A stretch of 64,000 bases of DNA. Origin: Thiorhodovibrio winogradskyi. GTDB taxonomy: Bacteria > Pseudomonadota > Gammaproteobacteria > Chromatiales > Chromatiaceae. The stretch covers positions 2,863,531 through 2,927,530 of the forward strand of contig NZ_CP121472.1 in assembly GCF_036208045.1 (NCBI RefSeq), given 5' to 3'. This document shows, piece by piece, positions 38,548 to 44,401 of this stretch. The position numbers and the translations under genes were made by a program. The number at the start of each line of letters is the position of its first letter. Position 1 is the stretch's first letter. The notes below the pieces were generated by a model that had not been told where the DNA came from, ran no database searches, and saw only the letters and a list, made by a program, of their open reading frames with translations.

Positions 38548-39230
38548 ATGGTCACCAACACCCGCGATACATCCAACCCGGATACTTCTAACAAAGCCCC
38601 GCTGCGCCAGTGGCACCGGGCCTTTGGTATCGCACTGGTCAATGTCTTCGCCGATGCGCCTTGGGTGGTCGAGCTCGAGCAGGAACTCGCCCTGAAAAGC
38701 CAGTTGCTTGATGTCGCCATCATTGAAGCCGCGGATCAACGCAGCCCAGAGCAGCCAGCGACCGAGTTGCCCGATGGACTGGGCAATCTACGCACGCATA
38801 ACCTGCTAACCTACAAATCACACCACGAAGCCCTCACCGCCTGGGTACTCTTTGCCAGCGAACAGGATCGGATGCGCCTGGGGCTCGCGCACTACCGCGC
38901 GCGCCACACCAACCCGAGCCAACACGGCCACTGGGAACTGCTCGAACACCTGTACCGACTCTACCGACGCGAGGTGCCTGAAATGGCCTAAACCATGGAA
39001 CAATTTCTGCGCTCAGCGAGACCCATGAGATGGTGATTGATGAGGCCATCCGCGGCAATCCCAAAGCGATTCTGAAACGCTTTAATCCCGAGGATCATCT
39101 CAATGGGCTTGCTCCCGAGGAGCGGCTTAAGGGGCTCGCTCCCGAGGATCGACTCAAGGGGCTTGATCCAGCCACCATCGAAGCCTGGCTGACCAAAGAA
39201 CGCAGCGGTCACTATCCGAAAAAGACCTGA
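38548..39230 (+). pseudogene. Rpn-associated hypothetical protein, multiply disrupted
   Basis: 38548-38991 reads as 147 residues ('LLDVAIIEAADQRSP', 'LRTHNLLTYKSHHEALTAWVL', then 'LEHLYRLYRREVPEMA'). The family normally has a longer middle after 'EALTAWVL', so an internal deletion is likely. A TAA follows where relatives continue with 'YTME', then a frameshift, and the C-terminal part with its typical 'APEERLKGLAPEDRLKGL' repeat lies at 39010-39230. I recognise the family from this repeat-rich C terminus but know no function. Confidence 0.65.
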
Positions 39231-39842
39231 ATTTTCTCGCCCAGGAGGGAATACGACGCCTTGCACGCGGAACAGCGCGGATAGACTTGAAACCCGGCGG
39301 AATACTCATTTGGGCGACCTTCCAATGGCCATTCGGTTGGCCCGAGGGCTACCTCAACCTGCAACTGCAGCTGGAGCAAACCACCGGAGCACTACGCGTT
39401 CACCAACTCCAGATTGGTCCCTGGTCGCTCCCACAGTTGCAACGCATCGCTAACTCTTGGGCGAAAGCCTACGAGTCTTTTCGTGCCGAAGAAATTGCTA
39501 CCGCCACTGGCCGCACGACCAACGAACTGCAAGCGGAACAAGACCGCCTAATCGCCCGCATCGAATCGGCCAGAGCCGATCTCGCCGAGTTTGCTGAACG
39601 AAACGACATCGTCAGTCTCGAACGGGATGAAAACCGCGCTCTCGCGGCTCTGACGGGGCTCCACAACTCCCTCGCGAAAGCGCGCGAACGGGTCGTCGAC
39701 GCCCAAGCGAATCTTGAAGCGGTGGATGCTGCCATCGCCCTCGGCGCGAACGTGGTGCCTGATTGAGCCTGAGCAAGCTATCTGAGGGAACTGGCCGCGC
39801 TTCTGAGCAAATTGCGTGAGGGAAAACGAAAAACCCCCTCAA

Positions 39843-39904
39843 ACAACTTGACGAAAGTTGTCCGAGAGGGCTGTCTCCGAATTTCGCCAAAAACCAGGAG
39901 ACAG
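39843..39904 (+). promoter_or_regulatory. Two hairpins sequestering the first RBS of the transposon
   Basis: Hairpin 1: ACAACTT (39843-39849) with AAGTTGT (39855-39861), extended by CCCTC/GAGGG. Hairpin 2: CTGTCTCC (39871-39878) with GGAGACAG (39897-39904). The AGGAG serving GTG 39910 lies in the second stem. Readthrough RNA from outside would mask the ribosome-binding site. Confidence 0.6.
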
Positions 39905-39909
39905 CACCA

Positions 39910-40503
39910 GTGTGTCACGCCTTTCTACACGACGCCAATTTCTACCAACTGCTCACTCGGATCGACGAGTCGATTGCTGAGGAGGCGCGCGCGCGCGGCT
40001 GTGACTGCGGTGGGGTCTTGCATCGCGCCTGCTATCCGCGCAAGCCCCGCGGTGAGCGTGGCGTCTTGGATGAGAGCTACCAGCGCCGTCTGAGCTTCTG
40101 CTGCGCCGAGGATGGCTGTCGGCGGCGCTGCACCCCGGCGTCCGTGCGTTTTCTCGGCCGCAAGGTCTACCTTGGGGTCATTGTCGTCCTGATCACTGCG
40201 CTCAATCACGGTCTCAGCGCGTCGCGTCGTCAGCGCTTGATTGAGACACTCGGTGTCTGCGTCCAAACCCTGCGCCGTTGGCAACAGTGGTGGCGGGAGC
40301 AGTTTGTCCAAACCCGCTGTTGGAGGGGATTGGCCGGACAGTTCCTTCCGCCGATCCTCACCGCCCATCTACCCAGTGCATTGCTCGAACGCCTAAGCGG
40401 CCGCGCGTTGTCCGAACGTGTCGTGCAATTGCTGGTATTGATCGCCCCGACCACGACAACGACAGGCTCGCCGCAGGCCATGGCCGACCCGCGGAAGATG
40501 TAA
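39910..40503 (+). CDS. Transposon zinc-ribbon accessory protein
   Basis: Protein of 197 residues from GTG 39910. Clustered cysteines (CDCGGVLHRAC near residue 32, then 'FCCAEDGCRRRC' near residue 72) form one or two zinc ribbons, followed by a hydrophobic helix-rich segment and 'LGVCVQTLRRWQQWW', a possible HTH. First gene of the transposon. Likely DNA binding or target selection, by analogy with other multi-gene DDE transposons; no specific homologue recalled. Confidence 0.7.
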   Translation: MCHAFLHDANFYQLLTRIDESIAEEARARGCDCGGVLHRACYPRKPRGERGVLDESYQRRLSFCCAEDGCRRRCTPASVRFLGRKVYLGVIVVLITALNHGLSASRRQRLIETLGVCVQTLRRWQQWWREQFVQTRCWRGLAGQFLPPILTAHLPSALLERLSGRALSERVVQLLVLIAPTTTTTGSPQAMADPRKM

Positions 40504-40569
40504 TCGCCCCGGTACGCAACGCCTTCTAGACTCCCAGTTCTGTGCAAAACACCTGAGAGGAGAAGGCCG

Positions 40570-41935
40570 ATGTCGGATGAACAAGCCCACGGCGACCCTG
40601 ATGGGTGGGCGCGGTTGCGCTTCGCCATTATTGGTCCCTTGTTGGCCGATCCCGCGCCGGGGGCTGGCATTGGGGCGCGCCTGCAAGCGCTGGCCGCCAA
40701 ATCCTGGCGCCATCCGCTGACCGGCCTGCCGGTGCGCTTTAGCTTCGCGACCTTGGAACGTTGGTACTACCGCGCGCGCGATGTGCAAGACCCGGTCGGG
40801 GCACTGCGTGCGCGCCGGCGCCGCGATGCGGGAGCGCCGCGCGTCTTGAGTGCGCGCCTGATGGAAACCATCCAGGCGCAATACCGTGACTACCCCGGTT
40901 GGACGGTGCAGCTGCACTACGACAATCTGGTCTCCTTGGTGGAGGCCGATGACACACTCGGACCACTGCCGTCCTACGCCACCGTGCGCCGCTTCATGAA
41001 GCGCGAAGGGTTGCACCGCCGCCGGGTCGTGGCACGCCAGACCCCCGGTGCCGAACAGGCCGCCCGGCGTCTGGAGGCCTGCGAGGTGCGCAGCTATGAA
41101 GCCCAGTATGTCCATGCCTTGTGGCATCTGGACTTCCACCATGGCTCGCGCCACGTCCTGACCCGCGGTGGTGTCTGGGTCAAGCCCCTGCTATTGGCGA
41201 TCATCGACGATCATTCCCGCTTGATCTGCCATTTGCAGTGGTATCTGGATGAGACGGCCGAGACGCTGGTGCATGGTCTGGGCCAGGCGTTGCAGAAACG
41301 CGGCCTGCCGCGGGCGTTGATGAGCGACAACGGCGCCGCGATGCAGGCCGAGGAGTTCACCGCTGGACTGCTTGCGCTGGGCATCCTGCACGAACCAACG
41401 CTGCCTTATAGCCCCTATCAGAACGCCAAGCAGGAACGGTTTTGGGCGACGCTCGAAGGCCGCCTGATGGCGATGCTCCAAGACATCGAGGAGCTCGACC
41501 TGCAGCGGCTGAACATCCTCACCCAAGCCTGGGTCGAGCAGGAGTACCACCGCAAGGTTCACAGCGAGACGGCCGCCACGCCGCTGGCGCGGTCGTTGGA
41601 TGCGCCCAGCGTGGGGCGCCCCTGTCCGGATAGCGAGGCCATCCGTGCGGCCTTTCGCTGCCGCGTCCAGCGTCGCCTACGCCCGCTGGGATTTAAGCGC
41701 GGTGGATCTGATCGACCCGCACAGTGGCGCACCGCTGTGTCGGCTCCATCCCTTGAATAAAGCCGCCAATGCCTCGGGCGAGCGACGGCGCCTGGACGGC
41801 GCGAGCACACCACCACCGTCCAAACGCACCACGACCCTGCCACCGCTGCTGCGCGAGTTGCTCGCCGAGTATGCCGCCACCGGCTTGCCGCCGGCCTATC
41901 TGCCAACCCATGACGATCCGGAGTTTGATGCATGA
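40570..41935 (+). CDS. rve/DDE transposase (IS481/Mu-like), C-terminal frameshift
   Basis: The main frame 40570-41760 (396 residues) has an HTH-rich N terminus and an rve core with Asp188 (LWHLDFHHG), Asp253 (MSDNGAAM) and Glu289 (AKQERFWA), spacing D-35-E. The expected C-terminal domain ('YARWDLSAVDLIDPHSGAPL') is in another frame up to 41935. The junction near 41677 lacks about 25-30 residues seen in relatives, so a deletion with frameshift probably inactivates or alters this copy. The last codons overlap the ATPase start. Confidence 0.8.
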
Positions 41936-42789
41936 ACAAAACCCTGTTGGCCATCTATGGACTGAAGTTCAATCCGTTTTCTCCGGAGCTGCCAACGGCG
42001 GCATTGCATCTGACCCCAGCGGTGGAGCAGTTCTGCTGGCGCATTGAGCAAAGTCTGATTCGCGAAGGCGGCTTTGCGTTGATTCAGGGCGATCCCGGCA
42101 CCGGCAAAAGCGCGGTGTTGCGCGTGCTCGATGAGCGCCTGCATCAGTTGCCCGACCTCAGCGTCGGGGCCATTACCCATCCGAGTTCCAAATTGGCGGA
42201 TTTCTACCGCGAGATGGGCGAGCTGTTCGCCGTTGACCTCAAACCGCATAACCGCTGGGGTGGCTTTAAGTTGCTGCGTGAGCGTTGGTTGGCGCATCTG
42301 CAAACGACGCTGTTGCGCCCGGTGTTGCTGATTGATGAGGCGCAAGAGATGCATCCGACGGTACTCAATGAGTTGCGTCTGCTGACCTCGATGCAGTTTG
42401 ACTCGCGCACCTTGTTGAGCGTGATTCTCGCCGGCGATGGGCGCCTGGCGGCGATGCTCCGGCGCGAGGAGTTGCTGCCGCTGGGCAGCCGTATCCGCAC
42501 GCGCCTGAATCTGGAGTCTGCCAGCCGCGAAGCACTCGTGGCTTGTCTGGAGCATGTGCAGCAGTGCGCGGGTAACGCGAGCCTGATGAGTCCGGAGTTG
42601 ATGAAGACGCTCGCTGAACATGCGTTGGGTAATTATCGGGTGTTGACGACCATGGCCGCGGAGTTGCTGGCGCAGGCCGCACGCCTTGAGCGCCCGCAAC
42701 TCGATGAGTCGCTGTACCTTGAGGTGTTTGGCGCGTTACCGGGTAACGCCCGCCAACGCCCGGGGGCCAAGGCGGCGCACGCCCGATGA
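41932..42789 (+). CDS. AAA ATPase, ExeA/TniB-like transposition protein
   Basis: Protein of 285 residues with Walker A GDPGTGKS (53-60) and Walker B LLIDEAQE (132-139), the ExeA/TniB/IstB-like pattern. Such ATPases choose targets and activate the partner rve transposase. Its start overlaps the transposase tail by 4 bp (ATGA) and its end overlaps the primase gene by 4 bp, so translation is coupled. Confidence 0.88.
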   Translation: MNKTLLAIYGLKFNPFSPELPTAALHLTPAVEQFCWRIEQSLIREGGFALIQGDPGTGKSAVLRVLDERLHQLPDLSVGAITHPSSKLADFYREMGELFAVDLKPHNRWGGFKLLRERWLAHLQTTLLRPVLLIDEAQEMHPTVLNELRLLTSMQFDSRTLLSVILAGDGRLAAMLRREELLPLGSRIRTRLNLESASREALVACLEHVQQCAGNASLMSPELMKTLAEHALGNYRVLTTMAAELLAQAARLERPQLDESLYLEVFGALPGNARQRPGAKAAHAR

Positions 42790-43565
42790 CGGCGGCCTCT
42801 CACACCGCGATGATGCTCGCCGCTTGGCACCATGCCGGTATCACGCGCGCGGATCTGGCGGTGCGCACGCCGAGCGCGATGATGCTGTGGTTCCAGGATC
42901 GCGCTTTGGATCAGCTGCCGCTCGGATTGGCCAGGGCGCGCAATGCCCATGGGGCGGATGTCTATATCCGTCCGGCTCGCGGCTATCCTTGGCCAATGGT
43001 GTTTCTCGATGATGTCGCCCCGGCAATGGCGCACCGCGTCGCCAAGCACTATGCCGTCCTGGTGGTGCGGACTTCGACCCTCGGGGGCTGTCATCTGTGG
43101 CTACAACTGACCCGCGCGCTTGATGAGAGACAGCGCGCCCAGGTGCAGCGTTGGCTGATTCCGCGTGTGGGCGCTGATCCGGGCTCAGTCTCTGGTGAGC
43201 ATCTCGGTCGGCTGGCGGGGATAAAGAATGCCAAACGCGGCGGGGAGTGGGTCAATGTTCTTCACCGCCCAGGCCCTCGGGAGCGGGTCTGGGATCCGAC
43301 GCCAGCTTTGCCAACGACCGCTGCGCCTCGGGCGAAACCGCCCGCTCGCAAACAGGACTCACGCGCGCCTTCCTCCGCCGGCGACAGCTCGGAGTCAGCC
43401 CGCGAATGGGGCTGGGTCCGCGGCGCACTCGAGGCCGGTCTGTCACCAACCACGCTCTACCAGCGCTTGCTCGAGCGCGCTTCCCCGCGTCGCGGTGCCG
43501 ATGCCGAGCGCTACGCCCGCTATACCCTCTCGCGCGCACTCCGCTCTACCGCGCACCGCCACTGA
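42786..43565 (+). CDS. RepB-like / archaeo-eukaryotic-type primase domain protein
   Basis: Protein of 259 residues. The N-terminal 180 residues resemble RepB-type primases: 'WPMVFLDDV' as the metal-binding hhhDD motif and 'TLGGCHLWLQL' as the sxH-like motif, with 'HLGRLAGIKNAKR' later. A Pro/Ala/Arg-rich linker leads to a C-terminal 'SPTTLYQRLLERASPRRGADAERYARYTL' region, probably DNA binding. A primase as the last gene of a DDE/AAA transposon is unusual. Confidence 0.72.
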   Translation: MTAASHTAMMLAAWHHAGITRADLAVRTPSAMMLWFQDRALDQLPLGLARARNAHGADVYIRPARGYPWPMVFLDDVAPAMAHRVAKHYAVLVVRTSTLGGCHLWLQLTRALDERQRAQVQRWLIPRVGADPGSVSGEHLGRLAGIKNAKRGGEWVNVLHRPGPRERVWDPTPALPTTAAPRAKPPARKQDSRAPSSAGDSSESAREWGWVRGALEAGLSPTTLYQRLLERASPRRGADAERYARYTLSRALRSTAHRH

Positions 43566-44401
43566 ACCCTGTCCGTCTCTCCCCCTTGGGGGGCGCGTGG
43601 TTCATGATTCCCGCTCTCCTTAGTCCGCCAAGGATGGCGTCCCGCATTCCACTGGCAGTCAGCGTCCTTTAAATAGCTTGAAAATAGTTCCGGCGAATAG
43701 CGTTTTTACGCTCACCTGATGAACAACAAGCAGACCTCGCCCGCCTGCGCCGCGATTACGAGCGCGAACGTGATCGCCTAGATGGGCTACTCGGGCGGTT
43801 CACCCTCCAATACCTTCAGCGCGATCCGTCCCTGCGCCATCTTCCAGAGGAAGTGCGCCTGCTTGAGCGGGAATTACAGCGCGCAACCGAGCGGGCACGC
43901 CAAACTGTGCGCCAACAAGCCGTGCAGCAAGTCGATGCCGCCAAGCAGGCTGTTTCGGCGCTGGAACGCGACCTAGACCAGCAACAAGAGCAGGTTCAAG
44001 CCTTCTCACGACAATTCAAGCAATACCAATCCCTTGAAGCCGAGCTCGCCCGCCTCGACACGCTCCTGGCAGACACTCGCGACCGCCTCGCCCGGATTGA
44101 AATGCGCAATTTCGAGGATTACCCTCCGATCCAGATCGTTGAAAGTGCCGCCTTGCCGACGCGCCCCATCTATCCGCGCTACCAACGGGATCTTTTCATC
44201 GCACTTGGCGCATCCCTGCTCGCCGCCCTATTTATCACCTGGCTGACGGATAATCTTTCCGGTCGCGGACGGCCACCAAGCCTTTCCTACGTTGGGGTCC
44301 GGGTCGATCCCGGCGTGAGTCTGATCAGCCAAGCGAGAGTTGACCACAGTTCCCGAACCTTAACCAATGACCAAAATCCGAAGCAAATCTCTGATTTTTA
44401 A

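Follow-up and report, generated by a model that had tools for sequence, protein, structure and literature searches.

We analysed a 64,000-nucleotide stretch of the Thiorhodovibrio winogradskyi genome (genome G000, C1:2863531-2927530; hereafter the window, in whose positions all feature coordinates are given) and examined a transposon of 3,951 bp located at 39764-43714, with ends TGAGC...GCTCA and four forward genes. In order, these genes encode a cysteine-rich (zinc-ribbon-like) protein, a DDE transposase, an AAA+ ATPase and a primase. The element belongs to the Tn6049 type of DDE transposons with four genes; in one lineage, the fourth gene encodes a RepB'-type primase. The four-gene frame is already known from Tn6049; the primase within it, and the helicases that we found in the corresponding place in relatives, are new within the literature searched. 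These findings suggest that transposons of this kind bring part of their own DNA-copying machinery.

The primase gene is part of a mobile transposon

A preliminary description of the window had proposed a transposon with matching 29-bp inverted ends, a CCTGAT target duplication and four genes. The transposon was confirmed at the proposed place: one CCTGAT joins both host flanks into a single continuing open frame, and copies in a second genome share the termini. The ends are indeed inverted, but they agree at 20 of 29 positions and are thus imperfect repeats instead of a perfect match.

The evidence for mobility comes from G002, a genome of the same genus, in which 27 near-identical transposase genes of full length occur, besides one distant one. 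Of the corresponding elements, 26 are uninterrupted, with a length of 4,073 or 4,076 bp, and the remaining one has a further copy inserted in it, flanked by a CCAGGG duplication of its own. The termini of the uninterrupted elements are the bases homologous to the window ends (the left ends of the G002 and window copies differ at 6 of 29 positions), whereas the flanks differ between copies, and all four frames are open in 26/26 (21 different sequences). Duplications flank 24 of the 27 copies (6 bp in 16, 7 bp in three, 5 bp in two and 4 bp in three). No duplication of at least 4 bp is present at the other three (L018, L030 and L057), and a by-eye comparison of their flanks for inversion footprints found no partner. 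The primase gene lies within the ends in all 27 copies and also in G1178, a genome of another genus of the same family. Because the G002 copies share their ends, carry duplications and keep four open frames, we conclude that the element is mobile and that the primase is part of what moves, in agreement with the preliminary description; the further TGAGC-ended four-gene copies that it recommended looking for are these 27, with duplications of 4-7 bp where present.

The same copies settle whether an ordinary insertion sequence merely adjoins an unrelated plasmid remnant in the window. Both copies in G000 are broken, as would suit such a chance neighbourhood, but the 27 copies elsewhere have the same ends enclosing all four genes. 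A chance arrangement is excluded because the G002 copies have homologous termini in differing flanks, and we consider this explanation refuted.

The window copy had been suspected to be a decayed member of an active family, and the comparison with G002 bears this out. It is 81.8% identical to the G002 element, 89 bp of its transposase gene are gone, and the tail of the gene is out of frame. Intact transposase frames of 485 amino acids that span both halves, whose existence had been left as a check, occur in G002. The catalytic triad (D188, D253 and E289 in the numbering of the intact G002 protein, assigned from the known motif and invariant alignment columns) lies upstream of the break. The transposase matches Pfam rve at an expectation value (E) of 1.9e-10; the IS481 NCBIfam equivalog, scored on the broken window protein, gave 131 bits and did not reach its cut-off of 224. 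A second copy in G000 (L017; C1 about 3951.6-3955.5 kb) has the same transposase split and lacks the first 56 bp, and G000 therefore seems to be without an intact copy of the transposon. By Pfam, the ATPase is an AAA_22 protein (E 9.6e-21); it also matches a DNA transposition protein of a phage (E 5e-17) and, as a weak match, TnsC (E 2.5e-4). For the first gene, the cysteine pattern of the proposed zinc ribbon is present, but the Pfam scan gave no zinc-ribbon match and a helix-turn-helix match below threshold (E 0.043); homologues of this gene are present in relatives.

Assignment of the fourth gene rests on comparison with solved structures. A profile of the window and G002 primases, searched up to E 1, matched RepB' of RSF1010 alone (3h25, E 4e-12; 3h20, E 9e-12). 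The catalytic aspartates of RepB' given in sections of PMC4434180 (D77, D78 and D134) align with D75, D76 and D131 of the transposon protein; the two share a homologous catalytic domain and all three catalytic aspartates. They differ in motif II, where RepB' and its relatives have Gln (sections of PMC5862659) and the transposon primase has His103, and the latter has a shorter C-terminal part and is located in a transposon. The Pfam RepB_primase score of the window primase is 19.7 bits, under the cut-off of 24.3, and a single-sequence structure model, considered with regard to the C-terminal helix bundle of RepB'-type primases, was poor (predicted local distance difference test score, pLDDT, 48.6), its confident part being two helices, 201-216 and 221-256. 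Between the window and G002, the ratio of nonsynonymous to synonymous substitution rates (dN/dS) is 0.23 (primase), 0.19 (first gene), 0.12 (transposase, intact part) and 0.09 (ATPase), and primase comparisons against G1178 gave 0.23-0.24; the primase is under purifying selection. As the preliminary description had noted, it is the last gene of the element and its start overlaps the ATPase stop (42786-42789).

Primase searches returned 2 of 190 genomes of near relatives (G000 itself and G002), 4 of 210 genomes of the family (G000, G002, G1178 and a weak match in G060, E 5e-4, which was not counted) and 4 of 369 genomes of the class (G000, G222, G213 and G196). The matches in G222 and G213 are RepB-like genes and that in G196 is weak and contains stops; none is accompanied by the transposon in the stretch fetched. 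A further match at G000:3573303 was rejected as a primase, being limited to residues 173-233 and surrounded by unrelated frames. In a transposon, the primase thus occurs in three genomes of two genera (G000, G002 and G1178), all from one bacterial family. The G1178 element spans 2,182 bp between both ends, without a duplication and without the ATPase gene, and its primase is 65-71% identical to the others. In the open-licence literature searched, we found no report in which a Tn6049-type DDE transposon carries a primase or a RepA-like helicase; in passages of a paper on Tn7-like cargo (PMC8649781), the word 'primase' occurs just within 'topoisomerase-primase' and in a reference.

The fourth gene across the Tn6049-type family

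Tn7, Tn5053, Mu and IS21 also combine a DDE transposase with an AAA+ partner. The window element differs from them by its fourth gene, and the Pfam scan of the window proteins found no match to TniQ/TnsD, TnsA or a resolvase. The closer counterpart is Tn6049 of Cupriavidus metallidurans CH34, described in passages of the literature as a 3.5-kb element in 12 copies with an ATPase gene named gspA (PMC2864759) and with ends TGTGCATAAGCA and 4-bp direct repeats (PMC4739549). On pMOL28, the genes are annotated, in order, as a 'transposase' in the place of gene 1, an IS481 family transposase, an AAA ATPase and a 71-amino-acid hypothetical protein. The transposase of pMOL28, which in the columns used for the tree is the same as that of L036 (G717), is 60% identical to the intact G002 protein. 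Tn6049 and the window element share the order of gene 1, transposase and ATPase, the TG...CA inverted ends and the short direct repeats, whereas the fourth gene of Tn6049 encodes 71 amino acids and no primase, and its ends start with TGTGC instead of TGAGC. The preliminary description had placed a terminal primase outside the standard sets; the four-gene set as such is not new, being of the Tn6049 type, and the primase takes the place of its usual small fourth protein.

The wider family was sampled with a three-sequence transposase alignment against one genome per species (84,980 species). We considered 83 relatives, namely the best 80 of 194 together with L036, L039 and L040; many are on short contigs, and rare primase carriers may be missed. 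The trio of gene 1, transposase and ATPase is present in 79 of the 83. The slot behind it holds a small protein of about 70 amino acids in 65 relatives, a protein of a third type (about 110 amino acids) in L135, L137 and L148, and a RepA-like helicase in L074, L138 and L146; it was not read or was ambiguous in the remaining 12, several owing to a contig end. The one protein of the third type that was scanned, that of L148, has no Pfam match. The count of 65 derives from 66 profile matches, after dropping L088 (2.3 kb past the ATPase) and keeping L069 despite its broken ATPase frame, and 9 of the 65 sequences are those used to build the profile. The profile search found no match to the small gene in the window, where the primase stands instead.

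A recognisable primase was found in the fourth slot of none of the 83 relatives. Relatives without the primase had been named in advance as grounds for giving up the transposon reading; it stands nonetheless, because whole multi-copy elements carry the primase. In L039 (G601), 20 residues past the ATPase are slightly primase-like, but the contig ends there, the primase search of the genome was empty and the transposase groups with other types, and this candidate was rejected. In a transposase tree, built by a quick method and rooted at the midpoint for drawing, the carriers of the primase (two of them) group together with a support of 100 and nest in a clade (99) with L069, L070 and L106, all of which carry the small gene. 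Because of this nesting, the tree suggests, as the simplest history, that the primase replaced the small gene.

An end scan of 30 relatives gave clear ends, defined by a duplication of at least 5 bp and at least 20 of 32 matching positions, for seven (L111, L114, L115, L117, L118, L122 and L124), including the Paraburkholderia copies L111, L114, L115 and L118, with ends TGAGCGTGAGCACGTAAATCGATGG and duplications of 5-7 bp. Separately, G001, a third species of the genus, harbours five copies of a distant relative with 33-34% transposase identity (L040, L041 and L066-L068); L040 carries the small fourth gene, and the primase search of G001 found none.

Replication helicases occupy the same slot elsewhere. 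Six relatives (L074, L138, L146, L157, L158 and L159) encode a helicase similar to RepA of RSF1010 directly behind the ATPase. The L146 helicase (P0008) matches Pfam AAA_25 (E 3.9e-30) and the RSF1010 RepA structure 1g8y (E 5.6e-7), and a gene for a CHC2 zinc-finger (DnaG-type) protein lies downstream of it (E 1.4e-10). The L138 helicase (P0007) is fused to a DnaA N-terminal domain (E 9.7e-12), and the helicase of L158, whose transposase is distant (26% identity), also has a DnaA domain (E 1.2e-10); L157 and L159 have AAA_25 without a DnaA domain. In L074, the ATPase stop and the helicase start overlap, as do the ATPase and primase genes of the window. A search with P0008 at E 1e-15 returned 4 of 247 genomes of the phylum of L138, one of them that of L138 itself, and in all four cases the gene stands directly after a Tn6049-type ATPase; against plasmids, P0008 had no match at E 1e-8. 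The family right-end sequence follows the helicase in four of the six relatives (L074, L138, L146 and L157) as judged by eye, a left end was proposed for L138 alone, without a duplication, and automated end scans of the helicase relatives gave nothing convincing.

On the transposase tree, the helicase label requires three changes, at least two of them on well-supported branches, and because of this the helicase would be either old in the slot and often lost, or gained more than once. The genome carrying L146 is recorded as a metagenome-assembled genome of Candidatus Uhrbacteria, in which the presence of the transposon may be a binning error.

A proposed role in transposition and its alternatives

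We propose that the transposase and the AAA+ ATPase would join the element ends to a target that the ATPase selects; end joining and target choice are functions expected from the families of these two proteins, as in Tn7, Mu and IS21. The primase would then prime single-stranded DNA that is exposed in the transposition intermediate, perhaps using a hairpin-GTG site near the right end, so that the element could be copied, or the product repaired, with less dependence on the host restart helicase and primase. The fourth slot would, in several lineages, be a replication slot, filled by a RepA-like helicase, by a fusion of a DnaA domain and a helicase or, once, by a helicase plus a CHC2 zinc-finger protein. 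The chances that the primase acts on the transposition intermediate seem to us about even, considering which slot it fills, that its gene overlaps that of the ATPase, that it is conserved, that some relatives bear a helicase and that there is a candidate priming site. More tentatively, a class of DDE transposons may exist with an interchangeable slot for fork proteins, accommodating the RepB'-type primase as well as the three arrangements just listed, and with an internal priming site, such that the element replicates itself in transposition without the host restart system; we regard this broader reading as possible but doubtful. Replication-linked transposition or second-strand priming, as suggested in the preliminary description, would be favoured indirectly by the helicase relatives and the hairpin-GTG block, but not by the orientation of the copies.

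The candidate priming site starts eight bases past the primase stop and has the form CGTCTCTCCCCC-loop-GGGG...GCGTGGxTCA. In the alignment of the three primase carriers, 26 of its 31 columns (43574-43604) are invariant, whereas the preceding 29 columns include 8 invariant ones and the following 21 include 3. The hairpin-GTG layout resembles that of ssiA of RSF1010, in which, according to sections of PMC4434180, the hairpin occupies nt 7-27 and the GTG nt 31-33; in the primase carriers, the GTG begins 3-5 bases past the stem. A GC-rich hairpin with a GTG at this spacing was present in none of 64 small-gene tails (36 hand-picked ones first, then 64). A 15-base motif of the tail, taken exactly, occurred at none of 86 loci, but the carrier G1178 lacks it too, and the motif was left unused.

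The origin of the primase bears on a different explanation, in which it is a passenger from a mobilizable plasmid, has no role in transposition and is kept because plasmids or transferred single strands bearing the transposon benefit from it. Apart from the transposon itself, the primase has its matches among plasmid RepB proteins (in 161 plasmid records, the best with 35% identity across half of the query), relaxase-primase fusions of the RepB' family have been linked to plasmid mobilization (passages of PMC5862659), and the 83 relatives lack the primase. However, the primase gene stands in place of the absent small gene and begins before the ATPase gene has ended, and replication proteins fill the same slot in other lineages, so that we think a mere passenger rather unlikely. 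Recent capture from a plasmid was rejected, there being no DNA-level match in the plasmid collection, as was a phage origin, with no phage record at E 0.01 and no viral contig.

Alternatively, the fourth protein could be concerned with target choice, as an adaptor that directs the element into single-stranded or replicating DNA. In Tn7-like systems, target selectors usually have as their partner the AAA+ ATPase, which the slot follows; DnaA_N domains are found in L138 and L158; and 21 of the 27 G002 copies lie in the chromosome half away from dnaA (p 0.006), the position of which was taken from a DnaA_N match at a contig junction. This enrichment may instead reflect selection, and fork-directed insertion by the TnsE pathway of Tn7 is biased in orientation, whereas the G002 copies show no bias: under five assumed terminus positions, 13-14 of the 27 run in the direction of replication. 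Fork-directed insertion is accordingly unsupported by copy orientation. We consider such an adaptor function, with the primase, the helicase, the DnaA domain and the small protein as alternative fork finders, unlikely.

Returning to a primase acting on the transposition intermediate, several observations, including this lack of orientation bias, weigh against that role. The primase is known from three genomes only, and the G1178 copy has one stop and has lost the third aspartate. Sixty-five of the 83 relatives have no recognisable replication gene in the slot, and such a gene is hence dispensable for the family. As to signs of replicative transposition, there is no resolvase gene and no cointegrate was seen, and the three G002 copies without duplications have other possible causes. 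The hairpin-GTG block was picked after viewing the alignment and is represented by three sequences only; its fold is like that of shuffled DNA in the window (z -0.3) and moderate in G002 (z -2.1). The block could simply form the end of a transcript, although it is not among the sites of our terminator scan.

Two known systems help to place the proposal. For phage Mu, the handover from replicative transposon to replication is well known and uses host restart proteins, and the staphylococcal cassette chromosome element SCCmec is moved by serine recombinases. SCCmec is comparable to the transposon family in being mobile and in bringing priming and helicase functions of its own: its replication module combines the CCPol-MP primase with the Cch2 helicase and has a preferred priming site nearby, although this primase is polymerase-based and unrelated to known primase families (sections of PMC7581432). 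If the proposal is true, a small transposon with a primase, with relatives bearing a replicative-type helicase or a DnaA domain, would make the handover testable with element-encoded parts. The window element is also a compact four-gene system and may offer an AAA+ transposase and a primase that are naturally paired.

Leader and surroundings of the window copy

The features of the window copy are collected in Table 1.

Table 1. Features of the transposon copy in the window
Feature	Position	Strand	Remarks
Target duplication CCTGAT, 6 bp	left 39758..39763, right 43715..43720		
Left inverted end TGAGCCTGAGCAAGCTATCTGAGGGAACT	39764..39792	+	
Leader stem-loop, terminator-like on the minus strand	39832..39872	-	18 pairs, then T run; conserved in G002
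Second leader stem-loop CTGTCTCC/GGAGACAG	39871..39904	+	encloses likely ribosome-binding site of gene 1
Gene 1, cysteine-rich zinc-ribbon-like protein	39910..40503	+	197 amino acids; GTG start
Gene 2, 5' part, DDE transposase	40570..41760	+	with catalytic triad; out of frame past deletion
Junction of 89-bp deletion in transposase gene	41672..41673		by comparison with G002
Gene 2, 3' part	41673..41935	+	different frame
Gene 3, AAA+ ATPase (AAA_22)	41932..42789	+	285 amino acids; start overlaps stop of gene 2 3' part
Gene 4, RepB'-type primase	42786..43565	+	259 amino acids; start overlaps gene 3 stop; catalytic D75, D76, D131
Hairpin then GTG, candidate priming site	43574..43604	+	conserved in three primase carriers
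Right inverted end	43686..43714	-	

Across the leader (39764-39915), the window and G002 copies differ at 13 of 152 positions, whereas synonymous-site agreement in the genes is just 53-59%. Folding of the whole leader gave z values of -3.9 to -5.3. Hairpin leaders of a similar kind are visible in L036, L039 and L146, and may be a feature of the family that guards against read-in expression. The terminator scan returned 4 terminator-like sites, with 3.5 expected from shuffling, and a promoter scan of the whole element found none, which is uninformative with 0.6 expected by chance.

The host frame broken by the window transposon (39287-39763 and 43721-44401) encodes a protein with a coiled coil and a C-terminal membrane segment, which we take to resemble a polysaccharide chain-length (GumC/Wzz-like) protein. 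At lower coordinates, a small open reading frame (39030-39230) holds three direct repeats (39086-39169, 27-bp spacing) that translate into a repeated peptide.

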